This document shows, piece by piece, positions 21,236 to 63,000 of a DNA stretch of 64,000 nucleotides. The first letter of the stretch is position 1, and each line of letters starts with the position of its first letter. Below the pieces are notes generated by a model. That model saw nothing but the letters and a program-made list of their open reading frames with translations, did no database searches and had not been told where the DNA came from. The position numbers were made by a program, and so were the translations under genes. The DNA comes from Haliclystus octoradiatus (lineage: Eukaryota; Cnidaria; Staurozoa; Stauromedusae; Haliclystidae). The DNA is taken from positions 14,693,936 through 14,757,935 of the forward strand of contig OU744448.1 in the NCBI GenBank assembly GCA_916610825.1, given 5' to 3'.

Positions 21236-24200
21236 ATGCGTTATAGAATATTTGGAAGCTTATGCAAATTGCTGCAGAGGCGCACATACACATGTTTGTC
21301 TTCCACTTTTGGTATTTGGTGTTGTGTTGGAGGAGTTTTACTACTTTTGATTTCTCTTGTGCAATTTGGAGAGGTCTTAGTTCAATGGAGCATGCAACAC
21401 TATTCGAAAAAATACGATGAGAGTTTTGATAATGTTGCAGGAAAAAGTTTCAAGGAACGTACTTGTTACAATTCTCCGATTGACATTGTTTATACCTGGG
21501 TCAATGGTAGTGACCCAAAACTAATTTTTGAGCTCAACAAAGTCAAAGCGGAATATTTAAAAATTTGTAATGCTTCAAAAATAGAAGAGAATAAACAAGA
21601 AATTAAATATTCATGGAAAAATGGAAAATGCCCTTATCCAAATTGTGTACCATTGAACGCTCTGACTATCAAAGGTTTACCAAATAATATATCATTAGCA
21701 GAACTAAAAAAATTAAATAAATTATTTCAAGTTGCAAAGCTGCTTGACCATAATATTCTAGGGGAGCCATTATTATCTGCTTTATACTTCCCAGAAGGGA
21801 CTGATCTCAGCAGGCTGCAGAATAAAACTTTAAAATTAAATAGGAACATTGAAGTAAACACATCAAGAATTTACCTCACCAGTACACTAGAGAAAGGGAA
21901 GAAAAGGTTGGCAACCGATGCTATTATCCTCGATATCCCCGACGATTACACTGAAATAGAGATTAAAAGAGCTCTGCGTTTGCAAGACATTGTTATTAGA
22001 TCAGTAAATTTACACCCCACTGAATCTTTGGCTCATGTTGTGTTTAGCGATGAAATAAACGCCAGGCGGGCTATATCACTTAAACGAGGGAACATCACTC
22101 TTGAAGGAAGAAAGATTAAGTTTTTTCCTGCTACACTGTGTTGGAAACCCCTTTTACCAGAATATATATCTGTAGAAAAAAATGAAGATATCTCATCAAG
22201 CCGATTTGCAGATAATGAGGAGCTTCGTTATTCTTTGCGATCTGTTGAAAAATTTGCCCCTTGGGTTAGAAACATTTATATAGTTACAAATGGGCAAATT
22301 CCATCTTGGATAAATCTCGAGAACAAGAGATTAAAAATAGTAACACATGCAGAAATCTTCAAAAATAAAAGTCATCTTCCAACATTTTCCTCTCCAGCAA
22401 TTGAAACTCATATTCATAAGATTGAAGGATTATCAAAGAAGTTCATTTACATGAATGATGATGTATTCTTCGGCGATTACATTTGGCCTGATGATTTCTA
22501 TACTCATGACAAAGGCTACAAAGTATACTTGACCTACCCAGTACCAAATTGTGCAGACGGATGTCCTGCATCGTGGGTTCACGATAAATACTGTGATAAA
22601 GCATGCAATGTATCAGCATGTGATTGGGATGGAGGCGATTGTTCAAATAGTTCTATCTCTTCATGGCAGCAAGCAGCCATTCGGGGTCTCTCTCTTCAAG
22701 CACAAGGAGGCTACTGCCATAGGGGATGTGCTAACAACTGGGTTGGTGATAGATATTGTGATGGACAGTGCAATACTGCTAAATGTGGCTTTGATGCTGG
22801 TGACTGTGGAGTATCAAGATTGAAAGAACTGCATTCGGTTAATATTCCTACTGCCGGCAATTCCACATTGATAATTCCAGATGGAATTGATGCTTTTTAC
22901 GTCAATATGTCAAATGTTTTTGCTCAAGGATCAATATCTTCTGCTGATCATGACGAAGCATCTGTTGTCAGAACTGTGATTGCATCACATCGCTTTATGA
23001 TACTATCAATCACATTATACAAGAATGTCAGCAGGATCTCAATACCCTTTCAAGTATCTGGATATAAAGATCTCAATCATAGTCAACCTTTGGAGATACA
23101 TTTCTCCATTTCAATCAATACAGCTGCAGTGTTTGTGGATAAGCCTACGTCAACGCAGAGCTCAATTATTGAACAACATAATACTTTACCAACTGCACCC
23201 ACAACACTGTACCCAGAAAGTTTCTATGGAAATAGGAGCGAGTCATTTCTGGAACTCAAATCTGCATTGAAGCTTTGGCAAAATCAATCATCATCTGAAC
23301 GAATTAATGAAATATTGAAACACCTGGAGATGAAAGATTTTGATTCTGGAACTTTGAAAACAAATTTGATGAAACAAAATGCCTCAGCCCCTATCAAAGT
23401 CAACATGACGGTGTTAGAAAGTATTCCTTGGCTGAAGAATTTGGTTATTCCTCTTGTTATTTCAAATCAGTCAGAAGCATTTGACAATTCCAAGCAGGTG
23501 AGTCTTTTACAGAATCATTTTAAAATAATTCACATTAGATAGTCAATTGCTAAATGGTCACTATGAAATTTGATCAGTTTGATTTATTCAAGCAACTGTT
23601 GATTCTACAGCAAAAAACACCACTCTGTTTAATGCCGTTTTGTAATAAAGCATAGATATGTGTGCACAGTTGCTTTTTCACTGAGAAGAATACGTGTGTG
23701 ATTGATCGCACACCAAAATGTTTCAATTTCAATATTTTTTGCAATTCAGTTTGGTGATGATTCTGGTGACATATTTTAATCCCATCATTAGAAATGTTCT
23801 TTCATTTCAATTTCCTGTTTTTTTCTTTTCTTATTATTCATTATTCAATGATCTTCAATCTACTATTATAATGATTCTAATTCGACTTGCTGAACAATTA
23901 TTTGAACATTTGCACAGAGAGACATTCCATTAAGTTAGGATTTACCAGGAAATGTGATGTTAATTGATGTAAATTTATTTACTGATAATCATAAAGCGTG
24001 TTATCATGACAACAATCAAGCATTTACACGGACTAACATAATTTAGTTAAATCAAGTCGTTATTCAAATATCTATTCTGTAAAATAAATTGTTGTAAAAT
24101 TGTAGCCTAGTGTTATTATATATATATTTATAAATCTGTCTTGTGAAAACTAGCTTTTACCATAATCTAGTCCTGAATAATGGTGATGATGATGATGATA

Positions 24201-27200
24201 ATTTTAGGCGTGCCTTTTATAATTACATCACCCTTGTCATCTTTATAATAGAAACCATGCCGAAATGTATTCAGGCTTTTTTCTTTCAGAATCAACACTT
24301 TTCTGATTTTTAAGTTATCTGATGTAAAAATAAATTAGAATTTCCATGCCTGTTGCCTGTTAGTTTGTTTTCTTTTCTGCCAACAGCTCGTGTAGTAGAC
24401 TGGTCAAAAAAATAAAGTTTGAAAGTTGAATTGCATTCTCCATTTTATTGTTCTAATGGGTAAAAAAAATCAAAAGTTCAAAATTTGAGCTCAAAACATA
24501 TTGGGAAATGGGCGCTCACTGCCCCTCAAAATTTATACAGAAAGTCAATATGGAGCGATTCAGAATTTAAAAATTTATAATTAAATCTCAGTAAAATATT
24601 TTTTGAATAATTTTGTATGTCTATGAAGGTAACAATCTCAGACACTTTATTGTGGCATTTAAAAGTCTATTGGTTGAGAACCTGAAAACTTTGCTTCAAA
24701 GTGATGCATTTGAATGTATGGCTTCCACTGTGATTGACAGATTATACAAGTGTGTGGTTTTCTGTTCTGTCAAAGTGTAGACATATTTCAATTTTAATTT
24801 ACCATGATTGGACAAAGATTGTTGGAGACTGTTTGAAATTAAATGCTAATACAGACAATGGTTTCTTGTACATTTTTGTTGGGAAATATAAGCGCTGTAA
24901 TGATTGAAAGTTCAAGAAAAACCAAATTTGTCAACACCTTTCCGTTTCCCACCTATTTTTAGTTTTATAGAAAACCACACACTTGTATATTCTGTCACAA
25001 TCACAGTGGCAGCCATACATTCAAATGCATCACTTTGAACCACAAAATTTCAGCATAGGTTCTCATCCAATAGACTTTTAAATGCCATAGTAATTTTTCT
25101 GAGATTGTTACCTTCGTAGAACATTATTGAAGAATACTTTACTGAGATTTAACTATTTTATTTTTTTAAATTTTTCCCCATTGACATTGTGTATTAATTT
25201 AAAGGCGCATTGAACTACTGAATTTTGAACTACTGACTTTTTTTACCCATTAAAACAATAAAATCAAGAATGCAATTAAACTATTAAACATTCTTTTTTT
25301 TGGAAAAGTCTATGGTTTAGGGCTACTATTTGTTTTATTGATTATATTTTTGAAGGGCCTATGCATCGGAATTTCAGTTTCAATTTTGATAAAAAGATAT
25401 CAAAATATGTAGTCCCAATAGCTTTATTTAAATTTGTCATTCTAATATAATATAATATAATATAATATAATATAATATAATATAATATAATATAATATAA
25501 TATAATATAATATAATATAATATAATATAATATAATATAATATAATATAATATAATATAATATAATATAATATAATATAATATAATATAATATAATATAA
25601 TATAATATAATATAATATAATATAATATAATATAATATAATATAATATAAAATAATATAATAATGTGAGTGCTCAATGTTTGTTAAGACAGAGCATAATA
25701 TAGAATAGACACAAAGTTGAGGCAAAAGCCTTTTCCATTACTCAGAGTTTCACACGTTTACTTTGCGTTCATCAGACGGTTTTTAGGGAGGATTAGCTCA
25801 GATGGCAGAGCAATCGAACTTTAGATCGGATCATATTTGATCCATCGTGGTTCAAATCTCCCTAAGGTCAACTCAGCCTTGACTTTATCTGAAACATCAA
25901 ACAAGTACCATCTGAGGATGGCGGATGGAATGGTCCAGAGGGAATTGCATTGTGAGTAGCTGCGGCGCATCGTTGCGCATTGACAATCAAGACCTATCTG
26001 CTATGAAATCTGTTGAAATTGATCTGCAGTGTCGCGGCTGAGATCAACAAAGAGCGTTGAAAATCATTTCTCTCAGTGAAAAAAGCCACTCATCTAGAAA
26101 TAGAGGAGTGGTACGGGTGCCTTCGGTAGGGCGACACCATCTACATTACTTATTTTTTACTATGAACGCAAAGTAATTACAGTGAAACCTGTATATAACA
26201 GCCAGCTACAAGAGGTAGATAAATTGACCATTATAGACAGGTGGCCTTTATATAGAGGTTTAATTCATTAGAAAATACTATTTTAGACATTGCAAGATTG
26301 ACCACTATAGACAGGTGGCCGCTTTATAGAGATGACCGTTATAACAGGTTTGACTACTTAATTATACTATTAATGTAATTACCTTTGGTGCTGCGCTGCA
26401 TCTTTGACATTATTATTTAAATTTTTATATCCATTCATATGCAAGGCTGCAACTTGACTGAGTAAAAAGTGTTCCGGTTGATTTATTATAGGCTACTAAT
26501 ACTAATTTACACAAATAACTAACAATAGGGGCAATACAATAATGGTGATAATTAAACAATAAACCGACTAAAATGTTCACACATGGTTGGTAACAAAGTT
26601 AGTGCTGTATACACCATTTTCACACATTCATTTCCAAATATAGACCATTTTCACATCCTTCGCATATCACCTTTCATTTTTCACCCCCCTTGAGCTTTTG
26701 TTTAAAGGAGCAAAAATGACCAGCAGGCGCTACGCACTTAGGATCACGTGCACGCTTATTGTTATAACACAATGTTCATTGTTGACATGAATTTCATTAC
26801 AAGTTAGGCCTGCATATAACAATTGTTTCAAAGCGAGACGGTTGAATTACGCTAAGCATAAATCCAACTTGTGCTCGCAGCGGTGGCCGGTCAATTTTGC
26901 CCCTTTAAGGCGTAAAGATGGCTCATGAGCACTAAATTCTGGATAGCGTTTGCAACTTTCATTCACTTACAATGAGAATGACAAATTTAAATATAGCTAT
27001 TGAAACTACCGGTAGCATAGTCGTCAAATCTTTTACCCAAAAGTGACATTTTTCAACTGGAAACTTTTCCTGCAAGTAACAGGAAACATATTTTAATCTG
27101 GTTAATGCATGCAGGCTAGTAGCAATCAGAGTGATAAAAGGTTGTGTTTTATTGAATCATGATAGATTTTATGAAGTAAGTCACGTTTTAAGGCTAGTTA

Positions 27201-30200
27201 GAGCACGATTTGTTGGGGCTCTGCCATACTGCTGGTAAAGAAGTATTGTTGACATATTTTTCTTTTAGATTTTGAATGTTTTTTATTATCTTACTGTTAA
27301 ATATTTTTGAATTATTCTCATTTGTTTGGTATCTAATAATCTTTAAATCCTTGAAAACTAAACCATGTGGTGATTGTGATCATAGATGATTAAAAGATAA
27401 GTGATACGATACAAGCTTAATTAATATTTAAACCCGGTTAGGCCATCATCCTTACAACTGATGCATTTATGCATGCATGCTATAAGATTACAATTCTAGA
27501 AAGGGAGTGGGATCTATACACCTGCTCATTACTAGTAACCAGCTTTCTAGATCTAGCAATGGTTAGGACGTTTCTTTTCAATCCTCGGATTATCAGCCTG
27601 CTCATTAATAATCAAAATGTCTCTAATTTGGTCCATTATCTGGACGATTTTATTATGGCAGGTCCTCCAAATTCTAACATCTACCTGACATAGCTCGAAC
27701 GTTCCATCCAGCTTTGCTCCATACTGGGTCTGCAACTAAACCCAACAAAATGTTTAGGTCCGTCTACAATTCTGGTAGTGCTGGGAATCGAAGTGGATTC
27801 TGTTAACCAAACTGCCCGTTTGCCAGAGGAAGAATTTCGAGAAATAAAAGAGCTCATTGACTCTTGGAAATGAAGACACTCTTGTTTCAAAAAAGAATTA
27901 CAGTCACTAATTGGCCATCTCCACCATGCTTCTAAAGTTGTATGGCCCGGATGTGCCTTTGTGTGCCGGATGCTAAACTTGCTTCCATGTTTCAAACCAT
28001 TTCGATTGAATGGAGAATTCAAGAAAGACCTGGACTGGTGGCAACAATTTTTCCAGTCTTGGAATGGTGTATCATTCTGGTTGTACCCTGGTATCCCAAT
28101 TTCTAGCAATGTCACTGTCCTGTCAGATGCATCAGGGTCAATTGGTTAATGGGCATTTCGCAACCAGCAATGGCTTAGTGTGCAATGGTCCGGGGCACAA
28201 CTTCACCATTCGATTTAAGGAGTTATTCCCTATTGTTGTGGCAGCTAACATATGGGGATACCAATGGGGGAGGCTACACAGTATTTTCAAATGTGACAAT
28301 GAAGCAGCAGCCTTTATTCTTAACAAGCGTTCCTCAAAAATTTCAGATATCATGCATCTAATTTGCGTTCTCTTGTGGACAGCAGCACAGTGCGATTTCT
28401 TTTTCTCTGCAGTGCACATCCCTGGGTCATTAAACGGGATCGCTGACTTTTTATCACATTTTAATTGGCAGGCATTTTCACCATATGGCACCAGCAGCAC
28501 ACTACCACCCTATATCAATACCATCATCTCTACTGAAAGATTGACCTAAGCCAAATAAATCACCAATGCCAGGTATATATAGATAACACTGTTGCCCGAC
28601 AACAAGAAAAACATACACATCTGCCCAACGAAAATATATGGAAAATTAAAAGAATGCAATTTAATGTACCACGGGAGTAGCTACCTGTAGCTAGCAACCT
28701 TATGCATGTCATTCATAAAGTATTGTCTTTCCCAGATAGCGACTCCGGTATACTTTGGGCTTCATGCACACTAGCTTATTTTGAATTTCTGAGATCTTCA
28801 GAGTTCACTGTGTCAAGCATGAAGGCATTCGATCAAAACACCGATCTACAGATCTCAGATGTGGCATTTGATAGACTTGATAAACCAAACTGCCTCAGAG
28901 TCCACATAAAGTTATCTAAAACAGGCTGTTTCCACAAAGGCTGTTATCTGCATATTGGTCGCGGGACTGCCCCTTTGTGTGCAATTTAAGCAATGATAAA
29001 CTACCTCAATAAATTAGGAGACAGAAGTGGTCCACTATTTGTATTCTCCAATGGCCAACCACTGTTTTGGATGCGTCTATCAACATGGGTTCAATCAGTT
29101 TTTGCAACTGCAAATATTCCAGAAAAATTTAATACCCATAGTTTTAGAATTGGTTGTTGCCGCAAGAAACGGTGTTCCAGATCATCTCATCAAAGCCTTA
29201 GGTCGTTGGACCAGCGATGCATTTACTTTATATATTCGTACTGCAACAGAGTCATTATCAATTTATTGTATGCCCCTTTTGGTGCTTGGTGATAGTTGGT
29301 GGTAGGATCATGCATCTCTGCCTTCTCCTCTTCAAGCACCTTGAAGGATGGTTTGGTGGTGTCAGGTCTGCCTTTGGACTGCTAGCTCTTGCATATCGCT
29401 ATAGTCACCTCCCACCAACCAAGCACTTATCCTAAATATCAGGGTAAGGTGAAGGGTTTAAACAAGCTTAATTAATATTTAAGCCCGGTTAGGCCATCAT
29501 CCTTACAACTGATGCATTTATGCATGCATGCTATAAGATTACAATTCCAGAAAGGGAGTGGGATCTATACACCTGCTCATTACTAGTAACCAGCTTTCTA
29601 GATCTAGCAATGGTTAGGATGTTTCTTTTCAATCCTCGGATTACCAGCCTGCTGCAGAGTCATGAACAAAAGTTTGCTCATTTTTATTGCTTTTGCTTGT
29701 TGCTCTGCTGATAAACCAATGTAGGGTTATCCTGCTCATTGCTATATTCAGACATACGCTTGTTGCAATGCTAATCACCTGCTGTAGGGTTAAGTGATGA
29801 ATCTGCACATATTTGCTGAAATGCTAAGCACCCGCTGTAAGGTAAACTTCTGATGCTGCTATGCTAATCACCCGTTGTAGGGTTAATTGATGTATCTGCA
29901 TATATTTTCTGCAATGCTGAGCATCCGATGTAGGAAAAACTTCTGATGCTGCCAACGGGCGCAAGTGCAACTGTCTAGTTTTAATTGGAAGCGGGCTGTG
30001 GAGGGCTATGTTTGATTATTGCACTCCCTCCCACACCATTGGGTAAAAAGGTGATGAGTATAACTAGGAACTCCACTGACTTAGCAGTGTGATTGGCCTT
30101 GGTTGGTGGTGTCAGGTCTGCCTTTGGACTGCAAGCTCTTGCATATCGCTATAGTCACCTCCCACCAACCAAGCACTTATCCCAAATATCAGAGTAAGGT

Positions 30201-33200
30201 GAAGGGTTTAACCTTTAATAACTTATTGATTTCTAGCTTAAGTATCATAATATAATATAATATGAGATGAACACATGTATGTGAGAGTGCTCAATGTTTG
30301 TTAAGACAGAGCATAATATAGAATAGACACAAAGATGAGGCAAAAGCCTTTTCCCGCTACTCAGAGTTTCACACTTTTACTTTGTGTTCATCAGACAGTT
30401 TACTAAAAAATTAAAACATACCACTATACTCCTATAAATTCATACATAGACGCAATATCTATCTATTGTGTTGATACAAAGGCTGTTGTTTATTATTACA
30501 ATTGTTATGATTAGATACACAATAGATCTATATTGCGTCTATGTATGAATTTAAAGGAGTATAGTGGTATGTTTTAATTTTTTAATAAACCATCCGAGGA
30601 ACGCAAAGTAAAAGCGTGAAACTCCAGAGTAATGGAAAGGCTTTTGCTTCATCTTTGTGTCTATTCTAGCTTAAGTATCATAGTTTCAGATTTTTAGCGT
30701 GGTTTTTCTCTTGTATCATTTAACCATGAGTCCAAGCTTAAGCTCCGTAATTAGGGATCAATTTTCATTCGTTTTGATTTTAATTTTTAACGGTTTTATC
30801 TGATGAAATTAAGTGAATCCAACTCAAAAGCTAAAATACTGAATCAGACCGCCGTATTTGCTTCTAATTTTCATGCTTTAATTTAAATGCAAAATCAATT
30901 AGGCTTTAGGCTAAAAAACAGGCTTTTTCAAAGGGCTCATTATAAAAATACAAAAAAAATGATTTTTTAAAAATGCCAAGATTAAATAATTAGTTTATCT
31001 ACAATAACATAATTTTGCACATTTTTCTATAAGTCCAATTATCAGCGGTCACTTTCATAGAGGATGGCAGATTATTCCACAAACAAGCACCAGCTGACTG
31101 GAAAGAGTCGCCATAGCTGTGTTTGATGTATATGTCATTATTAGTCGAGGAGCGAGTATTTCTGGTGATTTGAAATTGATAACATCAGTAATTAGTTACA
31201 TTATGCTTTTAATTTTGTTAAGATATAAATTGTAATCAGATGTATGTCAATCTTGAAATGACCATTGTTACAAATCAAGTTTTTGGTTGCATTTTCAGAT
31301 TGGTAGAAAGCTGCTATGGATCAACACTAAAAATGAAAGCATCGCATCGAATCCATTGCATGTAAATATAAAAGACATCCGTTTCTTCTCAAATAAGATT
31401 AACAAGGCAAAGCATTCGTACAAATATAAAGGTTTTCTTCCATGGGAGCGCCTCTCACTTTTATCAAATGTTGAGAGCCTGATAAAGCAAAGAGAAATTT
31501 TAAAATCATACGAAATAGATTATTTGAAAGGTAGGCATTTGATGGACTCATTTGCAGATACATTACATCACGTTGGAAAGATTTACAACAAGGCATTTGG
31601 TTATCAAGCACGCAAAGTACCAGCTCACATGCCACATTTTATAAATGTTGATATCATCAATGCTATGCAAACAAGATTTTCAAGTTATTTTGACATCACA
31701 TCATCACATAAAATCAGAAGTTCAGATGATATGCAGTTTGCATTCTCTTATCAATACTACCTGATGAGCTTACCAGGACAGATGAACTTGACTGAATTAT
31801 TTATTGAGTTTGATACCGACATGTCTGGTAAGTTGTTGCACTGTTAGGTTATGCCAATGCAATACCAAATGGAATTTTTAACTGTTGTCATTAGTAAGAA
31901 TGTGTTATTTTCTATTTTATAAAGTTTGATTTAGAACTATTCAGTGGAGGGAGATAGCAAACCTGCAATAGAAAGATGTTAAACTCAACAGATCATAGCT
32001 TACTATCAGCTGTGGATGCTTCACTGTATTTACATTGATAATTTCCTATATTTTCAGAAGCTGATTTTCTGATCTTTTCCAATTTGAAGGATTTAGCTAC
32101 ATAATCAAAACTAAATGTTCAATGAATTGAAAACAAAATAAATATCTTCATTTCATAAAAACAAATGTTGAATCAAAAATACTCAATTGAAATCCAGTTT
32201 TTAATAAAGTAGGCCTACTGAAACTGCTTAAAAGATATGTTTTGGCTGTGATTTGCTATGTTTTAGCTGGATATATATTGTTGTTTGTTTGTTTGAATGT
32301 TATTTTATTTTGTATGACAATATGAGCGATGCTCCTTGTTTACGTTATCCAAAATTTAAATTAATTGAGTATATGAAAAGATAAACATTTTTTTAAGATA
32401 AAGGATAGCGACAAAAAATAAACAGACTTAGGTTTAAACAACGTTTCGTGATAGCTTAATTGCATCTTCAGGTTAACAGGAATAACATATTAAAATTACA
32501 AAGTATTTATAGTAAAAATTTACGTGATTATAAAATTGGGTACAAAACAATGGAACAAAGAAAATATAATATTTACTTAGGTAGAGTTACACAAATAGCC
32601 TAGACCGGGCGGAATCTTTATGAGTGTTGAGGGTCGGACTTAGCTCTTTGATTGATAACATTTCATGAATTAAGCAATCAAACGTATTGGTGAACTTCCT
32701 CAGTACAGAAAAAAATGTCCGGAATTTTTGTCATTTTTATTGTGAGTTTGTAAGTGTAAACCGACTGCCGACCCACTATGTTCGCCAATACGTTGATGTA
32801 GATGCCGGCGCGTAAAGCCGACATAACTCGCATCGCACGAGCCACACTGGAATAGGTAAACAACGCATTGATGAGACAGTAAAGCCGGCCTCGGTTCACA
32901 CACACAAACATCATCAATTATTTTTCTAGATTTAAAAACTGATCGAAAGCTCTATCTGACTTCAACACTCAAAGTTTTCAATTGTCACCGTGGTGAATTG
33001 GCGGAAACCTGGTCTTTGTAAGGCAAAACAATGTTAATTGCATCTCTTTTCTTATAATCTTGAAAAATAATTGATGATGTTCGTGTGCGTGAACCGAGGC
33101 CGGCTTTACTGTCTCGTCAATGCGTTGTTTACCTATTCCAGTGTGACTTGTGCGATTCAAGTTATGTCGGCTTTACGCGCTGGCATTTACATCAATGTAT

Positions 33201-34762
33201 TGACGAACATAATGGGTCGGCAGTCCGTTTACACTTACAAACTCACAATAAAAATGTCAAAAATTCAAGGAAGTGCACCAATAAGTTTGATTGCTTAATT
33301 CATGAAATGTTATCAATCAAAGAGCTAAGTCCGACCCTCAACACTCATATTCCGTCCGGTCTAGGCTATTTGTATAACTTTACCTAGGTAAATAATATAT
33401 TTTCTTTGTTGTATTGTTTGGTACCCAAATTTATAATCACGTAAATTTTTACTATAAATACTTTGTAATTTTAATATGTTATTCCTTTTAACCTGAAGAT
33501 GCAATTAAGCTAACGTTGTTTGAACCAAAGTCTGTTTATTTTTTGTTGCTATCCTTTATCTTAGAAATGTTTTTCGAAGAAACTTTTACTGAATGAAACA
33601 TTTATTAATTATGATTAAAACATATGTTAGAAACAGATTCTAAATAAATAAAGAATTGAATTTAATAAACATAGATCTAATTATCATCTTGAAACAATGA
33701 GTATATATATGATTAAATTGAATTAAATTATTTTGTGACACAGTATATTGCAGTTAGATGTAATTTTAAATAATGTTTAAATTGGCCATAGTCTTGTTGC
33801 TTGCTGCTATAGTTTCATTCCTGTGGAGACATTCATTTTTTCCATTACAATTCAGCTTCAGAAAGCCCAGTAACACTATTAGTATGTGCATGGAGATGGT
33901 ATGGTAGCCCTTTTGTAACATCCCTGATTCATAAAATATTCAACAGCATATTATATATCTGAGTCAAGGAATATCATTAGAGAGCATTATGATGTAATCA
34001 GAACTCAACAGAAGCTAGTTTAGAGCAGTTCAAAAGAAAAAGAACAAATAGGTTGAATAATTGTTGATTGATTGGTGTGTTTGATGTATTTCAGGTACAT
34101 TGTCAGAACGTGAACTTCGAACTGTGGCTGCAAGAATTAATCGCCTGCCATTGATTGAAAATGTTATGACTGCTTTTGAAGAGCTTGTTAGAAATTGCTC
34201 CAATACAACTTGTGCTAATTGCACCCCATTAGTAACCAAAGATTTTATGGCTCATTGCCCAACACTTATAGCAGAACTCAACAACACAATTAAAGAAAAG
34301 AAAAAATTCAAGTTTGAAATACTTGGCGAAGATTCCATAGCTTTCAAGATGCTACGTGGCAACGCAAGTGATATTTTGCAACAATTGGACTGGGTTAGAA
34401 AAAACAAACGTAAATTTGTATGTTTGAATGATAATATTGACCATGAACGTCATGATGCTCCAATGCTGCGTGCCATTTTGAAGGATTTTTACCACTCATA
34501 TTTCCCAATTCCTTCACAATTTGAATTAGAACCAGGATATCGGAATAGGTTTTCAACTGTAGATGGTTGGAAGAAATGGGAATCACATCAAACGGACAGC
34601 AAAAGCTCGATTTATGCAGTGCTTGTTTTCATATTTATTATTGCTTTGCTATTATGGACAAGAGGATATGTATTTATCAAGGAAATATTCCCCCGTTTGT
34701 TCAATTATATCAATCCTTTTGGCAGGAGGTTCTCTAGAACAAATAATTCGTCCTGGATATAA
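21236..34762 (+). CDS. GNPTAB: N-acetylglucosamine-1-phosphotransferase alpha/beta precursor (3 exons)
   Basis: Golgi type III membrane enzyme that transfers GlcNAc-1-phosphate to mannoses on lysosomal enzymes, the first step of mannose-6-phosphate tagging. Exons 21236-23497, 31299-31827 and 34095-34762 join in phase to 1152 aa (human 1256). N-terminal membrane segment about residues 27-47; Stealth block DIVYTWVNGSD at 83-93; second Stealth block with DNEELRYSLRSVEKFAPWVR and IYMNDDVFFG; two Notch/LNR modules (CPASWVHDKYCDKAC and CANNWVGDRYCDGQC); probable site-1-protease site RHLM/D at 833-837; VPAHMPH; Stealth block MQFAFSYQYYLMS; an EF-hand loop DTDMSGTLSERE spanning the last splice junction; FVCLNDNIDH; C-terminal membrane segment. 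Start: first ATG, 5 bp past an upstream stop. The 7.8-kb intron 1 is packed with mobile elements; intron 2 holds a Penelope palindrome. Confidence 0.98.
24400..25290. mobile_element. Palindromic MITE-like element in GNPTAB intron 1
   Basis: Two arms of about 380 bp are inverted copies. The ends AGTTGAATTGCATTCTCCAT and the matching AAGAATGCAATTAAACT bound it, and the inner arms share AAAACCACACACTTGTATA. No coding capacity was seen. A second copy at 37764-38720 is split by another insertion. Confidence 0.75.
25444..25652. repeat. (TATAA)n microsatellite, about 42 units
   Basis: An almost perfect 5-bp tandem repeat of about 208 bp. It reads as an artefactual open frame on the minus strand (ILYYI repeats). 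A Penelope-element fragment begins at its right edge. A short TATAA tract also precedes the related copy at 30248. Confidence 0.97.
25660..25782 (-). mobile_element. Penelope-like element 3' end fragment (copy A)
   Basis: Shares GTGCTCAATGTTTGTTAAGA and the downstream ribozyme-like segment with copy B at 30286-30400 (near identity over about 110 bp). The opposite arm survives only as TATGAACGCAAAGTAA at about 26161-26176, because a SINE separates the two. It sits directly beside the (TATAA)n tract. Confidence 0.75.
25735..25779 (-). ncRNA. Hammerhead-ribozyme-like motif (copy A)
   Basis: Minus strand: stem I CCGT/ATGG, core CTGATGA, stem II ACGC/GTGT (A-U closing pair), core GAAA, short stem III ACT/AGT, cleavage triplet GTA. 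The layout is that of the minimal type I hammerheads known from Penelope-like elements. Activity is not shown. Confidence 0.72.
25783..26150 (+). mobile_element. tRNA-headed SINE with a type II-like head
   Basis: The first 85 bases fold like a tRNA. The acceptor arms TTAGGGAG/CTCCCTAA pair, the D-arm GCTC/GAGC holds the A box (TAGCTCAGATGG), a long variable arm GGATCA/TGATCC follows, and the B box is GGTTCAAATC. The anticodon stem is poor, so this is a SINE head rather than a working tRNA gene. A body of about 280 bp follows and ends near CATCTACATTACTTA. It is inserted between the two arms of a Penelope palindrome. Confidence 0.75.
26180..26352. repeat. DNA-transposon-like fragment with two internal repeats
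   Basis: Starts near CAGTGAAACCTGTATATAAC and has two direct copies of TTGACCATTATAGACAGGTG (at 26222 and 26308). Such ends occur in DNA transposons of many animals. The family is not resolved. Confidence 0.45.
26702..26908. mobile_element. TTAA-flanked MITE with about 35-bp inverted ends
   Basis: Ends AGGAGCAAAAATGACCAGCA and the inverse TGACCGGCCACCGCTG-type end (GGTCAATTTTGCCCCT) are flanked by TTAA at 26702-26705 and 26905-26908. TTAA duplication is typical of piggyBac-mobilised elements. No coding capacity. Confidence 0.6.
27411..30210 (+). mobile_element. Tyrosine-recombinase (DIRS-order, PAT/Ngaro-like) retroelement with split direct repeats
   Basis: Repeats in order: A1 27411-27602, coding part, B1 29353-29460, A2 29462-29653 (B1 abuts it), B2 30103-30210. 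The A copies are offset by exactly 2051 bp and the B copies by 750 bp. Coding remnants: RT with VHYLDDFIMAGP; RNase H with LSDASGS and VHIPGSLNGIADFLS; and a tyrosine recombinase with EFLRSSEF, THSFRIG and LGRWTSDAFTLYIR (R, H-x-x-R and Y residues). Stops and frameshifts (for example at 27691 and near 29150) show it is dead, and most of the RT and any gag are missing. Between A2 and B2 a TGCTAATCACC(C)GYTGTAGGG unit is repeated about four times. In GNPTAB intron 1. Confidence 0.88.
30354..30398 (-). ncRNA. Hammerhead-like motif, copy B left arm
   Basis: Minus strand: stem I CTGT/GCGG (with G-U pairs), CTGATGA, stem II ACAC/GTGT, GAAA, ACT/AGT stem III, GTA cleavage triplet. All core bases are intact. 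Confidence 0.65.
30590..30635 (+). ncRNA. Decayed hammerhead-like motif, copy B right arm
   Basis: Stem I CCAT/ATGG is perfect, but the core reads CCGAGGA instead of CTGANGA. The conserved U4 is lost, so it is probably inactive. GAAA and stems II and III are kept. Confidence 0.55.
32394..33563. mobile_element. Penelope-like palindrome of a second family (copy F), GIY-YIG in both arms
   Basis: Arms 32394-32926 and 33062-33563 are inverted copies around a 135-bp spacer. Each arm encodes, reading outward, a GIY-YIG endonuclease fragment: minus 32903-32700 (CDASYVGFTRRHLHQRIGEH) and plus 33085-33387 (CDSSYVGFTRWHLHQ, FDCLIHEMLSIKELSPTLN). The catalytic-type Y..GFT.. and R/H/E positions are recognisable, but both arms carry disruptions. 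In GNPTAB intron 2. Confidence 0.82.
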
Positions 34763-34991: not shown

Positions 34992-36302
34992 TTAACTTCC
35001 TCCTAGGTCAATTTTCTTTATGTTTGCAGTTGGTATTTCTATCGCAGCAACCTGTAACGGCCACATGCCACCAATAATACCAGCCTGCAAAGATACACCA
35101 GTAACAACAGCAATATCTGGGTCGATTTCTATATTTGGTGTTTTGTTAAAAAAATCTTTAATAATTGAGCGGACTTGTGGAATTCTAGTTGAACCACCAA
35201 CTAACACAATGTCATCAATATCATATTTGCTCATTTCTGCTTCTTGTAGGACCCGTTCAACAGGTTGTAATAGCTTTGAAAATAACTTTTGATTTATTTT
35301 ATTAAATAAATCTCTTGAGATTGGTATGTCGAATATGTAACCTGGCTTGAAGGCATCAAGTCTTATTGAAAGTAACACTTGTTCGTGATCAGTCAGATTT
35401 AATTTTGCCTCTTCGACTAACAAATGTAGATCATCAAGTGTTTGTGGGTCCAAATCAATGATACCAAACCGTTCATTTATCGTATTTTCTATGTAGTTGA
35501 CTAAATTATCATTAACGTCTTGGCCACCAAATCTGTTATTTCCAGCCATAGCCAATGTCACAAACATACCACCTTGTACACTTAACAACGATACGTCAAG
35601 TGTTCCACCGCCAAAGTCAATGACAACAATCATGTGATTGCCTTGTCTTGTATGAAGGCCATATGCCATCGCAGCAGCCGTTGGCTCATTAATTAACCGC
35701 AATACTTTCAATCCTGCTAGTCCCCCTGCTTTAATTGTGGCATTACGTTGAACCTCATCAAATTCTGCAGGAACACTTATAACTGCCTGGTTGATACTAA
35801 ACCCAAGGTTCTTTTCAGCTACTAATTTTAACTTTTTAAGAATGATTGATGCAACTTCGATTGGTGAAATGGTGAACAAAGTATTATTTGTATGTACTTC
35901 AAAAGAAGGGTTTTTTCTATTGTCTGTACTCAATTTGAAAGGGTATAGCCTTTGAAGCTGTGCTATATCATGATCACTAAATAATTTTCCTATGAAACGT
36001 TTTCCATCGTAAACCACTGATCCAGCAACTCGACTCATATTTCTGGAATCAAATTGCCCGACCGCTGCACTGCTACCATTAGGAAAGAAAATAACACTTG
36101 GAATTGTCCTGGATCCATCTTCATCTTTGAATATCGTTATGTTTCCTGATATTGACTGATAACTGCCGACACAAGAATACGTAGTGCCAAGATCAATTCC
36201 TATGATCTTTGGTTTTGGTGGAGGAAGTCGACTCTGGACGATATAGCCGGCAATAAATAAAGCCAAAATAAGAGCTGCAACTGGACCAAACGCAGAATTC
36301 AT
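34992..36302 (-). CDS. HSPA13: Hsp70-like microsomal ATPase HSPA13/STCH, intronless
   Basis: Single open frame of 436 aa (human 471) from the ATG at 36302; an in-frame extension to 36335 has no ATG. A hydrophobic signal/anchor (about residues 5-22) is followed by a complete Hsp70 nucleotide-binding domain: phosphate-1 loop [17 protein letters not shown]-like [21 protein letters not shown], phosphate-2 [12 protein letters not shown], and the adenosine motif [13 protein letters not shown]. It ends with the STCH-typical [13 protein letters not shown]. No substrate-binding domain follows, which is normal for HSPA13, so this is not a truncation. It acts in the ER/microsomal lumen. It converges on GNPTAB (stops 229 bp apart) and diverges from the two-pore channel gene (845 bp between start codons). 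Confidence 0.97.
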
Positions 36303-37147
36303 CGTAAGATAATAAGACTGTATTATTATCTCCAACTCTCAGCACCTAGAAATCATGCTGTTATTATATCATTAATGTCAGCCTTCCGATTCCTCAAGAA
36401 TTCCAGGCCGATGATTAACTTTCTTCATAAAGCAAACATTATTTTGACCCCATCCTCCTCTATAGGTACTTCGAATAGCTTATTGAACTCTGACGCAGAT
36501 CAAAGCAGAGTTGATTTTCATATTATTTGTTTTCCACGACTCAGATCCATAAATAGGTCAAATTAAATAGATATTATATAGTAGGCCATATATCAGATCG
36601 TATTCAACAGATAATAGGACATATGCTACTCAACTTACTCTCTGCTTTAACTCTGGTCAAAGCTCTAGCCAAGATCCAAGAATGATCTGCGATTCCATAG
36701 TCTTGATGAAATATAAAAATAAGATAGGGACGAGGCTAGCATAACGTGTAATAGCGCCATCATCAATTGATCTCGTGTTGCACATTGACCCGCATTGCTT
36801 GTTGTGTCGTTTCATGGTTCATTCAACAAAACATACTGTGTTGAAATTTGAAAACAATCCCAATGATTTAGACATGCCATACATTAATTAACAAGAAACA
36901 ATATAATCAATTTGTTATAGAAATCCAACACGTTTATTGATAACGGTAACGTTTGATTGGAAATTTACGAGGAAAATTGATTGAATGTTTGTTTTTATTT
37001 ATATTATATACGCATCCAGTATTTTTATGTAACATGCCATACATTGCACAATTATTGAAATGAAAACAACATAAGAATGGTGCTGCAGAGATTTTTGCAC
37101 AAAGACGCGGATAACAGAAATTGCTAGACTTTGCAACATATTCAAGC

Positions 37148-49100: not shown

Positions 49101-52100
49101 CCTTCTGAAATCTATGATTGCAGAATAATATTTGCCTGTATACAGTTAAAATTTGAATTAATCTATTCCTTGAAGATACAGATTATACTTTTGTAATTAG
49201 ATTTTATTTAGGTATATTGTAACTGTACAGTGTACATACAGTGTACTAATGTTTTTTAATATATTTTAGGTCATCTATTACTTCTTTGCTATAATTGGTA
49301 TGGAACTTTTCCATGGTAAAGTTCATGAGGGATTCTATGGTAACCCAAGCTCATCCAATCTGACAACAGCAGAACGGGCTGGGCTCTATTGTGGCAATCC
49401 AAATCTAAATAATACCACGTTTTATAGGCTACGTTATTGTGGTATCAATTTCAATGATGTTATAAAAGCATTTGTTACACTTTTGGATTTAACAGTTGTT
49501 AATCAATGGCACGGTGAGTTGATCATATATCTCTTCTGAATTGATAATCGCAGGACTGTTTTGTAATTTAATGTTTATACAACCAACACCAAAATCATGA
49601 AAATCCCTGAAAGTGTTGTGAAAACATCATCAAAATGTAAAAAAGTGAAAATCACAAATTTTCTAAACCATGAAAAAGTTGAATGCCATGAAAACATCTA
49701 TATTCACAATATTAAAATGTGAAAATGCCATGAAAACACAATGGAATTTCACGATTTTTTTCATTATTTTGGTGTGTTAATACATGTCTATCTTTTTTCT
49801 CAATGAAATGATCTGTTCTTTCTGTGATACAATCATTTCTTTTTGCTATTTAAAATAAAGTAATCTATCAGAAAATATAGATAAATGATTTTGAGAAACA
49901 ATTACATTTTCTCAAATGTAATGTAGCTAAGTTTAGCTACCATCTACAGAACAGTCAACAAAAACATCAAAAGTGTAAAGGTTAGTAGCTTGCGTCACAG
50001 ACCAAAACATTTTGAACTTTTTCCTAACGTTCTAAAAATGTTTTGTTCTGTGACGCAGGCTAAAAGGTTAGAAGCTTTAAGACATTTATTTTTTGATGCA
50101 AATTTGATGTTCCATATTAAACAAATCAAGAAACATATTGGGCTCATATAAATACATCAATTGAATAGATTGATATCGGAAAAACCTTTGCAAATATTTT
50201 CTAAATTGATTGGATCTGAATGCTATGCAAGTTTCTTCAGAAATTGTGGTGATTTCAATTGCTGATTTTGAAGATACCATGAATGAAACAAGAAAGTCCT
50301 AGACATCTAATCAACCTTTTTGCATTACAAATATCGGTTCTCAAGCAACTTCAATTTCCTCCAAAAACTGTCAGCTTCCAAATAATTACATTTAACTTTT
50401 CACCCTTCAACTGGGTGCGGATTGATGATTGATTGATGAGATGGAGGTACCCATCAAGTTGGTATCAAAACAAGTGCTTGTATTTCTCCTCCACTCTACC
50501 CATTTAGTAACCAAGCTCTATCATGCTGATAAGCCGTGGAACATTAATACATTCCTGCTGGAATAACTGTTACCATACGTCTATAGCAGCGATTTGGTCA
50601 ATTACATTATATTAACAATCGATTCGTATTGTAACCGAGTTTGTATGGTGTACCTTGAATAACAACAACTTATTTTCAATTAATCATCTAATGTAAAAAT
50701 CTTTGCCTTGTCAAAATACTTATTTGATATAACATAACTTGATGAAGATAAGGGCATATCATGCACCATAATACAAGGGAGGAAAACAAATTCATAAAAT
50801 AAGCTTTACCAAAGAATGTGTTGTGTGGCATCAAATTGCGAAGCTAAACAACAAATAAATATTTAGCAAAGTGAAGCATATATAGCAACTCTCCAATTTA
50901 TTAGCTTTATATGCTTTGCCATAGTATATATCAACATCAATTGTGAATTTGAAAATGAGATATAAATTTCAAAAACTATTCATTATAGAGCGTTTTTCAG
51001 CCGTTGTCAAAATCTAAAGATTTCCTGAAAAGATTTAAACTTTTTGTATATGTTTCTGTGAAATGCAATTTTATAAGAATGTAGCCCTGTGGTTACTACT
51101 GAATACTGACATTTGAATTGCCTTTAACTACTATTTATTTTAATCTCATCATTTGTTTCCTTATCTCTATAGTTATCACAAGTGGTTTTGTTGCTGTGAC
51201 ATCGAAAGCAGCGCGTTTGTACTTCTTCATGTTTCACCTCCTCTGTGTGATTGTCGTTCTGAAGTAAGATATAGATTCTTATACGATGGTTGATTACATG
51301 TTCTATGTATGATTGTTGACATATAACATATTGACATTACTAGAGTTGCTGCTGATTAGTCTACTACTATGTACAACAAAGGCATCCGTCTTATATGTAT
51401 GATTTCTTGATGATGTGCATAGATTACTTTACTTGACGTGTTACCTGAATGCTCCAATTCAGCAATTATAAATATGAGATAATATAAGAATAGCCTGTGG
51501 TAGATATCGTAAACCACGTCAAGGAGAAGCACGTCCCCACTCCCACCTCAATGCATCCAGGAGTGTTGTGTAATGTAATTTTATCTTTTCCGTGGTCCCC
51601 TCCTCGGGCCAGTTTGATTAAGTAGGAACAAATTGTGTCATGATTAAAATATTTATGTATAGAAGGACACATTGAAAGACAAAAACCAGAAGAACAGCTT
51701 GATAATCAAACTATACCTATTCATCTTTGCCATGGCCTGCACTCTCTTTTTTGTTAAGAACATACTATATATCATTGTATACGAACAAGAGGGTGTACTC
51801 TATTGAAACTCCACTGATAGGATGGATGAATAGATAGCATAGTAGTCAAATCTTTTGTAGCCATTTTAAAAAATTTTATCTTGAATATTTTTGGTATGAA
51901 AATGATGCAGAATTCAAAAAGCATTCAATCTCCAGCTATTTTAGAAAGTTTCTAAACATCTGATGGAATAACTTGTTTGCATCATCTCAAATCAAAAAAA
52001 GCACATGGTAGAATCCAAGCAAATATGTCAAGATGCAATTATCAGCAAAAATAATTGAGATTTATGCAAAGCAATGTTACATCCAACCTTTTTAAGATGA

Positions 52101-53100: not shown

Positions 53101-53138
<38 letters not shown>

Positions 53139-53400
53139 AAATTTATGTTTATCTAATAGCAGATAATATAGAGCTCTATGTCTTCATTTGACAGAGCGGT
53201 AAATAATAATAATATATGGCGAAAAAGTCAAAGAATACACATTCTTTACTGTTACTCAAGTTTCACGCTTTTCACAGCGATCTTCAGACAGATTTTTTAC
53301 TCAATTGAGTAAAAAATCTGTCTGAAGATCGCTGTGAAAAGCGTGAAACTTGAGTAACAGTAAAGAATGTGTATTCTTTGACTCTTTCGCCATATATTAT

Positions 53401-53468
<68 letters not shown>

Positions 53469-56400
53469 ATAAAGATAGATTTATCTATCGTCAGATGTGA
53501 TAGTGCTCAATACCGATTAAACATTGGCAGAGCTGTAATACATAAGGATGGTGACTGAGTCAAAGAAAACACATTCTTAATTTCTGTTACTATAGTTTCA
53601 CGCAGTGTGCGATCATCAGACAGTTGATACTCAATGAAAAATATACATGGTGACTCCTATTACATGCTATCATAAGTGCCGCAGCGCGTTATTGTTTTAA
53701 TACAATAGTTGTCTTAACATACGATGGTGCTATTGTTCCGTTTTGGTAATTAAGGCGTTAGATAAATGAAATTGTTTCCTATTACAGCAGTTAAGTTAAA
53801 TTATGTTTTAGTTTCTTTAAAATTAGATAAATAAAATTTATTCTCGTGACGGCATTTTGAGATTAGTTCAGATTTTTTATTAAGTAATGGCTCTTTTGAG
53901 CATATAATATAATATTTTTCCAATAAACATAGATGACATTTTTTAGATATATTATTGTATGGCTTTGCATTTGCAATAGTTGACCATTTGATTTTGTACT
54001 GGCTGTTGCTGTCTTTAAGTCCCAAATATGCTTTGACAATTGCGTGCTGCTGCTGTATTTTCTATGTTTAAATGTGGATTTGTGTTGTGTGTAACGTGCT
54101 TTGAATGTGTCTTCTGTCAAACCAATATAGCTCTTTCCCTCTTCGTCGGCTGGTGTTGTCACTGTAGCCTTGTAGATGATACCTTTTAATTGGCACCTAT
54201 TTTCGAGTGGGCAAGTATCTCTATCCCTGCAATTGCAAGGTGTGGCTGTGGCGTTATTTTCATCATTGGTTATTTTGTTGTTATGACTTTTGAGAATCTT
54301 GTCCATGTTGTTAGTACAGCTATAACTCACTTTAATTGTGTTATGGTTAAATATCATTTTCCTAAATCAAATAAACTGAGCAAGATATTTAACCATAACA
54401 CAATTAAAGTGAGTTATAGCTGTACTAACAACATGGACAAGATTCTCAAAAGTCATAACAACAAAATAACCAATGATGAAAATAACGCCACAGCCACACC
54501 TTGCAATTGCAGGGATAGAGATACTTGCCCACTCGAAAATAGGTGCCAATTAAAAGGTATCATCTACAAGGCTACAGTGACAACACCAGCCGACGAAGAG
54601 GGAAAGAGCTATATTGGTTTGACAGAAGACACATTCAAAGCACGTTACACACAACACAAATCCACATTTAAACATAGAAAATACAGCAGCAGCACGCAAT
54701 TGTCAAAGCATATTTGGGACTTAAAAGACAGCAACAGCCAGTACAAAATCAAATGGTCAACTATGGCAAATGCAAAGCCATACAATAATATATCTAAAAA
54801 ATGTCATCTATGTTTATTGGAAAAATATTATATTATATGCTCAAAAGAGCCATTACTTAATAAAAAATCTGAACTAATCTCAAAATGCCGTCACGAGAAT
54901 AAATTTTATTTATCTAATTTTAAAGAAACTAAAACATAATTTAACTTAACTGCTGTAATAGGAAACAATTTCATTTATCTAACGCCTTAATTACCAAAAC
55001 GGAACAATAGCACCATTGTATGTTAAGACAACTATTGTATTAAAACAATAACGCGCTGCGGCACTTATGATAGCATGTAATAGGAGTCACCATGTATATT
55101 TTTCATTGAGTATCAACTGTCTGATGATCGCACACTGCGTGAAACTATAGTAACAGAAATTAGGAATGTGTTTTCTTTGACTCAGTCACCATCCTTATGT
55201 ATATATATATATATATATATATAGAGTATAAAACAGAGACGAGGCAAAGCCTTTTCCGTAACTCGGAGTTTCACGCTTTTATTGCGATCTTCAGACGGTG
55301 ATACTAAAAAATTAAAAACATACGATTACTCCTAAACATACATACATGAGTGCGATATCTAGCTATTGTTATCTACAATGGGTTACTGACAAATTAATAT
55401 TTTTATTGTTTGTTTACAAAGGCATATTGTTGTAAATTTCTTAATGTCTACGATTTACCGGATTTAAAATTTTCAAGGTAAAATTTGTTCTCATGCCGGC
55501 ATTTGGAAATAAGAACTCATTTCTTAATCAGAACTTATTTCCAAATGCCGGCATGAGAACAAATTTTACCTTGAAAATTTTAAATCCGGTAAATCGTAGA
55601 CATTAAGAAATTTACAACAATATGCCTTTGTAAACAAACAATAAAAATATTAATTTGTCAGTAACCCATTGTAGATAACAATAGCTAGATATCGCACTCA
55701 TGTATGTATGTTTAGGAGTAATCGTATGTTTTTAATTTTTTAGTATCACCGTCTGAAGATCGCAATAAAAGCGTGAAACTCCGAGTTACGGAAAAGGCTT
55801 TGCCTCGTCTCTGTTTTATACTCTATATTATGCTCTGTCCTAAAAAACATTGAGCACTTTCATATACATGTGTGTATAAGAGTTCACACTCAATACAATT
55901 AATTTTTTAATTAATTATTATTATATATATATATATATATATATATGTTTCTGTCGGTAACCATGTTCTCATTTGCCTATTGGTCTTGTTTTTTAAGACA
56001 TATTTTTAAAGCAATCTTATTTTTTCAAAATATATTATGCATCTTCCTGATAATTCGATGAGTATAAAAGCCTCAAATTGTTGTGAAATTAATTTTCATT
56101 GTCAAATTTCCAAATACGTAATTGTTTATGTTGGTGGAGTATTGGATCGTGTAGCTTGTTTCATTAAAATACTATTATATCCATAGACATAATAGATATC
56201 TATTATGTCTATGATTATGTCATAACTTACATTTGTGATAGTCAGCAAATAGGACGCTTAATTAATAAGTAAAGATATTTAGGGAACGGAAACAGAACAT
56301 GTAACCATGACTAAGTATTACAAGATATGACGTTCTCTTGATATATATTATATACTACTTTCCAATGCATCATATATATCTGCGTTCGTTATTTTATAGG

Positions 56401-60079: not shown

Positions 60080-63000
60080 ATTGCTGCTAAGGAATGAGGC
60101 GAACATAGTCCCTCCGTGACAAAAATCCATAAATTTGTTTGTCACTAATAAGATTCAAATAAGCACAGCTTCGCAATTGGTATTGTTATAGTTGAAGTTG
60201 ATGTTTTGATGTGTGCTGATCGCACTTTACCGTCATCTCCCATATGATATGTACTTTTTGAACTACAGCTAACAGCCATTGACCACAAGCAAGGTTATCT
60301 TCTCTGAAAATACAAGGTCACCCACTCTTAGATTTCTCTCTGATATTGTCCATTTTGTTCTTTTGTTCTCTTCTCTATGACTTACGCATCGATACATCAT
60401 CTTTGCTGAATACACCTGGAGGTAATGTTGTTTGTGATCTTACAAGAAGGAAATTATTGGGTGTTAATGGTGTTGTTTCATTAATATCATCGGATATTTT
60501 TAATTTATTCATTCATAATTGCTTCTACTTCGGTGATGATCGTGTTAAATTCTTCCTGTTTTAAATTGTGATTATTGATTGAAATTTTTAGGGAAATTTT
60601 TATGCTTCTGATGAGGCGTTCCCATGTAGAGCGATGATGATGGGTTGAATTTCCATTCTACATTTTGCTGTTGGAGTTCCTTTGCGATTGCTGCATGATT
60701 TCATTTGTTGATTTCTTCTTTGATTTCCTACTCAGCACCTATGAAGTTTGTACCATTGTCACTCTGAATGAGAACAGAATCTTCTGAGGACGTTGATGAA
60801 ACTGTCTGTTGATAGGGATGTTGTTGACTCAATGTGAACTGCTCGTGACGTGATGCATGTGAAGAGACAACACCAACGCTTCCCCAGTGACCTCTTGATT
60901 TTGGTTTGAAACGGGCCAAAGTAATCCACACCAGTAGACTCGAACGGATAACCTGAAAAATCTCGAGAAGGGGGTAAATCTGACATGAGCTGTCGCATGG
61001 GGCGAGCAGCTATTCTACGACAAATAAAGCAATTGAAAAGAATTTGTCTGAGTGTTGATCTGGCACGAATGATTCAATACTTCTGATGTGTTGCACAAAG
61101 AATTTCTTCTGCAATTTGGATGACATCTGAGTTAATTTGATCTCTTCTGGGAAGAAATCTTGTTGTATTTTTTTTATGACAATTATTTCTGATTTCTGAA
61201 CCTCGCCTGATGTTGGATGCGATTCTGGTTTTTTCTTGACGTGTACTTGCTAAACATCTTCTTTTGAATGATAGATAAGTTGCAATAACTCTAGTTAACT
61301 TGTTGAATGATAGATGGCCAAAATGAAGTTGGTTGTGAAATGAATGCTGGACCAGTAATCCATCTACAATTTGAACTTAGTTGAGAAGGGTTTAATCTTC
61401 TGCTTGCGTCATCAGCGTGATTTAATAATGTCGGACGGTAATGCCATGTAGCATCAGGAATGATTTCTTTAATTTCTGCAATTCTATTTGCTACAAATGT
61501 GGTAAATCGTTTTTCGTTGTTTTGAGATAAGCTAAGGTTGTTTCAGAATCTGTCCATAAATGAAGTTCTTCTATATTTAATTCAAGCTCTTCTAATATCA
61601 TCTTTCTGACTCGAGATCCCATAAGTGCTGCTTGTAGCTCCACTCTTGGTATATATAATCCTTTAAGGGGTGCACATCTCGATTTCGCCATTGGAAACGC
61701 GCAATTTACTTTGCCTTCATATTCAAATCTCAAGTATGCAACGCAATCAAAACCAACTTCTGAAGCATCGCAGACATGAAAAGATGTTTTGCAATTTCTG
61801 TGAGGAATTGGAAATGCTCTTTGTGATTTCAATTTTTCGATTTCTCTTAGCTCACTTTTCCAAATCAACCAATTTTGAAGGTTTTCTTCATCTAGTGGTT
61901 CGTCCCAATCAGTTTTTGTTTTCCAAAATTTTTGGATTGAACAGCTTCGGTTTTAATAAAACTGGTGCTGAAGAACCATCTGGACAAAACATTGAGGATA
62001 TTGTTGATAAAACTCCACTTTTTGTGAGAGGTTTTGTAACAGTGCTTTCATTAATTTTGTACATTAATGAATCCGATTCTAAATCCCATTTCACTTCTAG
62101 AGCTCTATGGATTTTTGCTTTTGATTCAAGTTCAATGTCAACTTCTTTTATTGACCTATCTGCTTCAGGTATTGAATTTAAATCTTCTTTGTTGTTAGAA
62201 ATCTACTTAGTTAATTTGAAACCTTTGTTTGCTAATACTTCTTTCAATGATTTAGCCAACTTAATTGCTTCTTCTATTGTGTCTGTTGACGTTAATAAAT
62301 CATCCATATAGAAATTATTGAGTACAATATTTTCGCATATCGGAAAATGTTCGATATGATCAGTTGCTGCACGTTTTAATGCATAATTTGCACAACATGG
62401 AGAATCCGTCGCCCCAAAAATATGAACGGTCATTTTATAAATTTGTGGTGGTTTTGATTAATCGTTTCTAAGAGAGTCTCTATCCTCAACTGGCACTCTA
62501 GTTTGGTGAAACATTTTTTCTATGTCAACCATCGATGGTATTTTTTTTTGACGAAAGCGTAATAAACAGCCGAGTAATGAATTTAATAAATCAGGACCAG
62601 TTACTAAGTTTTCGTTCAAAGAAGTCCCTGCATAGCCAGATTCTGCATCGAAGACAACTCTTACTTTTCCTGGCTTGTTAACATTTTTACGCCTTGATGA
62701 AGTAAGTACTAAGTTTTTGGATTGAAATTTTCTATTTGCTCTGGAGTTAGTTTTTCTGCGTGACCATCAGCAATATAATTATTTATTTATTTAGATTCCA
62801 TAGCAGACCAGTATGATAATGTCCATTTTTAAATGTAGTTTCATTTAGTATATTTTGCGCTCGTCTATCTTGAACGGTAACAGTTTTTATCCTTATGTAA
62901 TGTTCCAAAACTTTCTGTTGACAAGAATTCTTCTAATTAATTACTAATTGTTTGTTTAAGCTTGTTGTGTGTATTGATATTATATTATTTGAATCTTGTC

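Follow-up and report, generated by a model that had tools for sequence, protein, structure and literature searches.

Two described systems come closest to the structures reported here. In the anole (Anolis carolinensis), the protein of the Penelope element PAc cuts both target strands, extends both, and begins synthesis at two neighbouring sites inside the RNA, which bound the genomic tail; a dimeric form is predicted for the protein, the start site was not seen to differ between the strands, and obligate pairing of the two sites is not reported (PMC11167929). In the Penelope families of Adineta vaga, head-to-head inverted pLTRs are the most frequent arrangement, palindromes lie at the junctions, the tail is optional at one of the inverted pLTRs and target duplications measure 8-10 bp (PMC3846280). 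Head-to-head Penelope structures and a one-sided tail are already known from that work, which offers self-priming on antisense RNA as a hypothesis for the inverted, optionally tailed copies (PMC3846280). Among titles and abstracts on inverted or head-to-head Penelope copies, tails, self-priming and priming from both strands, and among later work citing the anole study, with most subscription papers outside the search, no statement was found that a dimer must pair two different 3′ ends.

The window analysed here is a 64,000-nt stretch of the genome of Haliclystus octoradiatus, and it contains several palindromes in which two copies of an element are joined head-to-head (mirror dimers). Like the PAc element, the elements concerned have tandem units, a pseudo-LTR, a motif near the unit start (here a ribozyme-like candidate), AT-rich targets and a tail, although the tail is about 77 nt long here and 30-40 bp in the Penelope copies described in that work (PMC11167929). 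No link is drawn there from the two start sites to mirror copies (PMC11167929), whereas here each resolved mirror copy has each of the two ends once. Few copies are described for Adineta vaga (PMC3846280), whereas in 35 of 35 sequenced dimers of one family studied here, termed D, one arm and one only carries the tail.

The element and its family

At one locus on contig C1 (L009), tandem 2525-bp units stand head to tail in both arms of a dimer, so forming pseudo-LTRs, and contain an open 734-aa frame. One real unit of this locus plus its first 260 bases served as the coordinate reference (ref), in which a ribozyme-like core lies at 2501-2525. The motifs YRDDG and IY...YIG were read by eye in the 734-aa frame, and we take them to be marks of a Penelope-like single ORF with a telomerase-like reverse transcriptase and a C-terminal GIY-YIG endonuclease. 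A Pfam search of the frame at E 10 returned two unrelated sub-threshold matches and nothing else, an NCBIfam search returned no match, and a PDB sequence search with the element protein gave no relevant match. Since the family libraries gave no confirming match, the probable assignment to Penelope is based on architecture and these motifs. The Penelope traits found here are tandem units that form pseudo-LTRs, an optional tail at one end, and AT-rich simple targets with duplications.

Palindromes C, D and E of the window belong to related but distinct families that share, toward the 3′ end, a short core resembling a hammerhead. The four families B, C, D and E all have this core (CTGANGA ... GTGAAAC); it is followed by GTAGC in B, by GTTAC in E, and by GTAAC in both C and D, and by eye its stem II pairs co-vary in family B. 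An Rfam search gave no hammerhead match for it, and the lowest-energy fold of the region differs from a hammerhead. The outer 3′ ends of the sequenced D-family palindromes are bimodal, falling either at S (ref 2581-2586) or at L (ref 2657-2663), about 77 nt apart, with none between. Between S and L, the lowest-energy fold of the C-, D- and E-family RNAs allows a GCUC/GAGC hairpin shortly after S, the folds being not strongly better than those of shuffled sequences (z -0.9 to -1.9). One locus (L013, C7:20465000-20473500) has in its L arm, beside a full unit, repeated mini-units 379 bp apart with the ribozyme-like motif, reminiscent of non-autonomous retrozyme-like monomers.

Palindromes in the window

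A first-pass annotation of the window had reported three consecutive palindromes with outward element 3′ ends, and these are real: arm alignment gives inverted repeats at 53200-53304/53305-53409 (C), 53538-54355/54384-55202 (D, matched as two pieces) and 55219-55521/55526-55828 (E), with arms 98-100% complementary and the 3′ ends facing outward. Each of the three exceeds the size first given for it and extends to about 53102 (C), 53461 (D) or 55925 (E), because in each case one arm continues through the 3′ tail into the flanking simple repeat.

More specifically, palindrome C has a minus-strand L arm at 53102..53304, with the element 3′ end leftward, the tail at 53102-53199 and the inner end at a TTGAG start point, and a plus-strand S arm without tail at 53305..53409. 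Palindrome D has a minus-strand L arm at 53461..54355 (ref 1764-2659), comprising the 3′ end of the ORF, the 3′ UTR, the ribozyme-like motif and the tail (53461-53537), and a plus-strand S arm at 54355..55202 (ref 1735-2582), which exceeds the L arm by 29 nt; these inner 29 nt are missing from the L arm. Palindrome E consists of a minus-strand S arm (55219..55521), an unstranded 4-nt centre (55522..55525) and a plus-strand L arm (55526..55925) with its tail at about 55829-55925. Unstranded (TA)n target DNA lies between C and D (53410..53460) and between D and E (55203..55218). The further palindromes that had been noted elsewhere in the window are both present. Palindrome B, near 30.3 kb, has a minus-strand L arm at about 30281..30480, where the bounds are those of the query and the tail may reach further left, and a plus-strand S arm at about 30517..30668, while palindrome F (32400..33557, no strand assigned; 32.4-33.6 kb) is of an older family, with arms about 85% alike. 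Each of B, C, D and E has one L end and one S end.

How common mirror dimers are

The genome searched has 33 contigs, 262 Mb in total. When at most 3 mismatches were allowed, the core motif gave 288 matches (155 forward, 133 reverse) and the control gave 0. Among 100 of these 288 matches that were listed, neighbours less than 3 kb apart were head-to-head in 28 cases, tail-to-tail in 2 and on the same strand in 4, counts that include a few duplicated loci. A shorter core found 141 close head-to-head mirror dimers of any family and 0 tail-to-tail pairs with a gap of 16-46 nt; the latter is an unfair control, because two 3′ ends would space such copies, and 28 versus 2 is the fair count.

An unselected run of 27 consecutive D-family insertions (C1 to C2:14.17 Mb), made up of the first listed exact motif matches and hence favouring young copies, contained 23 mirror dimers and 4 singles, three of them with an L end (L031, L042, L047) and one with an S end (L040). 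The share of dimers was lower among the insertions in the 20 loci of best similarity, where 12 dimers, 7 unpaired copies and 1 mixed copy (L027) were found; six of the unpaired copies have an L end and one, in L023, an S end (L015, L017, L020, L021, L022 and two in L023), and both L017 and L022 adjoin runs of N. Mirror dimers are a common outcome in several families, accounting for most sampled D-family copies and for many in three related families. This bears out the earlier suggestion of such an outcome across families, with pairs in B, C and E as well as in D. At one place (G000, C2:34370240-34371413) three close mirror dimers that have the same spacing lie inside 1.2 kb.

Resolved dimers pair one L end with one S end

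The 35 distinct D-family palindromes that were sequenced all have one L and one S end (35/35), with L on the left in 21 and S on the left in 14; were both ends drawn independently and evenly, the probability of this would be 2 to the minus 35. Dropped from the set were L055, a second copy of the palindrome in L049, and L027 with its mixed right arm. L030 (on C1) and L055 (on C5) are the same insertion with shared flanks, which indicates a segmental duplication, and L049 (C2:30826450-30828350) has one palindrome present twice, 1,082 bp apart, as a tandem duplicate.

The pairing was also scored in four families from coordinates only. As these searches scored the best 40 candidates, the counts are lower bounds, and some end calls rest on short or partial matches (in B and D, for instance, of 27, 37 and 59 nt): at least 20 of 21 head-to-head pairs are L+S in family C (the other L+L), at least 12 of 14 in E (11 clear; the remainder one L+L and one L with an unassigned end), at least 13 of 13 in B, and at least 13 of 15 in D (5 new; the remainder one L+L and one unassigned). 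The clear pairs of B, C and E and the extra ones of D number at least 49, which brings the total with the 35 sequenced to 84, and S+S pairs were 0 among the sequenced D-family palindromes and the coordinate pairs of B, C, D and E.

The rows used for pairing were 64/81 in C, 50/52 in E, 55/58 in D and 52/52 in B. Once (TA)n matches are set aside, the 17 omitted, weaker C rows contain two further L+S pairs, which belong to divergent relatives, and neither an L+L nor an S+S pair; in family E the two omitted rows are pieces of tail that lie between the arms of one pair (C5:15979896-15980604), which for this reason was not counted as clear; and the three omitted D rows are weak matches, two of which form, by eye, an S+L pair of a relative. 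Two L+L pairs stand by coordinates only, at C5:15978854/15979549 (D family) and C6:13690818/13692896 (E family), and would count against the rule. Two other L+L candidates were rejected: that of the C family at C1:16875860 (L056) is actually the centre of longer arms that continue past L, and that of the D family in the L009 array is internal to longer arms. The mirror pattern is true and general, and the rule of one L and one S per dimer is sharper than that of equal truncation.

A proposed two-sided model of insertion

Our preferred reading, to which we give a probability of about 0.7, is that these Penelope-type insertions arise by two-sided target-primed reverse transcription, probably of one RNA, followed by end joining. 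The enzyme would make staggered cuts in AT-rich simple DNA, one in each strand and about 12-18 nt apart, with a polarity that we infer. Both freed 3′ ends would then prime cDNA, one at L and one at S, about 77 nt nearer to the RNA 5′ end, with each site used once per insertion. Both cDNAs would be made from a single RNA, or at least from RNAs with a common source, and would run toward the 5′ end or stop early, and for transcripts begun in the pseudo-LTR the limit would be ref 2485/2486. Finally, the two cDNA ends would meet head-to-head and be joined with microhomology and templated filler, a kind of joining that is typical of polymerase-theta end joining. The sequences themselves show the L+S pairing, the target duplications, the contents and inner ends of the arms and the joins at the centres, from which the enzyme steps are deduced. 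Human LINE-1 twin priming likewise uses two primers at a single target for one insertion; it inverts the 5′ part of one copy, whereas here both cDNAs would start near the element 3′ end and leave two outward 3′ ends.

PAc resembles this scheme in its two adjacent start sites and in cutting and extending both strands, but the absence of a strand difference in its start site counts against a strict pairing of sites (PMC11167929). The existence of singles, 4/27 in the run and 7 more, mostly L and two of them S (L040, L023), also counts against the two-sided model. A stronger version holds that L and S are a built-in pair on one RNA, each given one target strand by one subunit of a protein dimer holding both sites, so that the mirror dimer would be the normal product and singles its failures; we regard this as a matter of even odds. 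If it is true, the tail is the spacing between paired initiation sites. The pairing of L with S gives the tail a meaning and argues against self-priming, and it makes the model of two strands and one RNA directly testable with the anole enzyme, which has already been purified.

One RNA or two

The same two-sided reaction might instead use two RNA molecules from the same locus, one copied from L and the other from S, which we consider unlikely while granting it some weight. Two RNAs would accord with the end pairing, the duplications and the free arm lengths, and the mixed copy L027 (C2:15438500-15444500) shows that a second RNA can join in: it has a D-family S arm, and its right arm begins at the presumed site of ribozyme cleavage and changes to another family after about 524 nt, so that either two RNAs or a switch of template can be involved. 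By itself, however, the use of two RNAs gives no reason for the lack of S+S beside 84 clear L+S pairs, and the correlated inner ends favour one RNA.

This correlation was assessed in the 16 non-tandem D-family dimers in which one or both inner ends lie upstream of ref 2480, a set defined by a stated rule that replaces earlier statistics on 14 hand-picked dimers. The two inner ends lie at most 105 nt apart in 10/16 (permutation mean 2.9, P 4e-5), at most 45 nt apart in 6/16 (mean 1.9, P 0.006) and at most 20 nt apart in 4/16 (mean 0.9, P 0.007); preferred stopping points around ref 1550-1600 and 1735-1780 could be a partial cause.

Sequence variants point in the same direction. Across 36 dimers, including the duplicate L055 and both L049 copies, 99 of the 14,249 sites compared differ between the two arms of a dimer, and almost every such difference is confined to a single arm. 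When the comparison is restricted to sites with a minor base present in at least 4 loci, there are 61 agreements and 2 disagreements between arms, where independence would predict about 16.3 disagreements, an expectation that is rough as the base frequencies were drawn from the same loci; most agreements concern the common base, and in the 7 comparisons with a minor base both arms carry it in 5. Looser thresholds give 3 disagreements in 114 (25.2 expected) and 16 in 340 (50.1 expected), many of these 16 being cases where the minor base is itself a private change. An identical 41-nt deletion is found in both arms of L033 and in none of the other 33 arms covering that site, which favours one RNA over two, although one source locus would also suffice. 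Taken from the sequences, these patterns would favour an origin of both arms from one RNA; a small number of active source loci, or gene conversion from arm to arm, could also be the source of the shared variants.

Arm lengths and self-copying

According to the first-pass annotation, truncation falls at one and the same point in both arms of every copy. This holds for many short dimers and for palindromes C and E, but not for D, with its 29-nt difference, nor for the 6/16 dimers of the same set whose inner ends are more than 105 nt apart. The S arm is the longer one in 10/16 dimers and the L arm in 6/16, so that neither arm is in general copied from the other. In three of the six unequal dimers (L025, L026 and L044), the S arm is longer by 1,058-1,737 nt and the tail belongs to the L arm alone. 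Wherever S is longer, the tail is found only in the L arm and the extra 5′ sequence only in the S arm, and thus neither can have served as template for the other; a better fit is that synthesis began twice, separately, on a longer template common to both arms.

A snap-back, in which the cDNA (or antisense RNA, the proposal made in PMC3846280) folds at the truncation point and copies itself, would account for the head-to-head orientation, for the identity of the arms and in part for the close inner ends. It requires the copied arm to lie inside the template arm, and such containment is not what was found, with S longer in 10/16 and the tail on L only. The three dimers with an S arm more than 1 kb longer contradict it unless the L arm lost more than 1 kb before joining, and it provides no fixed S end. 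Self-copying is consequently very improbable, and the proposal that the cDNA switches to copy itself or its sister strand, made when the window was first annotated, does not fit dimers that hold unique sequence in each arm. The arm contents seen here also contradict self-priming, the model put forward for Adineta vaga (PMC3846280).

Centres and target sites

The inner ends fall at ref 2485/2486 in 24 of 70 cases and within 2484-2496 in 31 of 70, and the centre of palindrome C carries the same TTGAG start. This position is probably the RNA 5′ end, i.e. the transcript start, judging from where the copies stop, and the arms of short dimers match because both presumably reached it. At the centres themselves there are overlaps of 1-4 nt, short gaps or inserts, 22/35 being at most 6 nt and the longest 61 nt; of the inserts of at least 8 nt, 8/13 match the flanks better than shuffles do (P at most 0.025) and 5/13 do not.

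Insertions sit in (TA)n, (TAA)n or other AT-rich DNA. Where the target is less repetitive, duplications of 12-18 bp flank the dimers (L046, L043, L050, L041, L014 and L029), as the first-pass annotation had proposed to look for outside the palindromes, and duplications of the same size are found at the singles L031 and L040; much of the target DNA is simple repeat, where duplications cannot be measured. A direct flank match of at least 10 bp occurs in 37/39 insertions (a count that includes the duplicate L055 and omits L009 and the second copy of L049) and in 26% of shuffled-flank trials, figures that simple repeats inflate. A single target duplication surrounds the whole dimer, in agreement with the earlier view that the dimer is formed in one integration event.

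These observations also bear on the two weakest explanations. Perfect palindromes are a known class of library or assembly artefact, but fold-back reads have next to no probability as the source of the dimers, in which the arms have private substitutions, unequal lengths and differing 3′ ends, target duplications flank the whole and the centres vary between loci. Equally negligible is a chance landing of independent single insertions head-to-head in one AT-rich target, since, even though simple-repeat targets do cluster insertions, as in the window, orientation is 28 head-to-head against 2 tail-to-tail and 4 same-strand (below 3 kb, in the 100 of 288 matches listed), the mostly short centres are not target DNA, and L+S pairing holds in 35/35.

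Other features of the window

Palindrome B sits within a gene at 21230-31847 that is presumably GNPTAB-like, between a piece with Stealth CR1/CR2 and LNR domains (21230-23542) and a piece with CR3 (31257-31847). A degenerate minisatellite of about 3.6 kb, with 31/42-bp units based on TTCATGAA, occupies 13520-17174, and a short MITE-like hairpin repeat at 49985-50064 has microRNA-family matches below the curated cut-offs. The minus strand carries an Hsp70 gene at 34992-36338 and a fragment of a Pao retrotransposon peptidase at 61491-61952.
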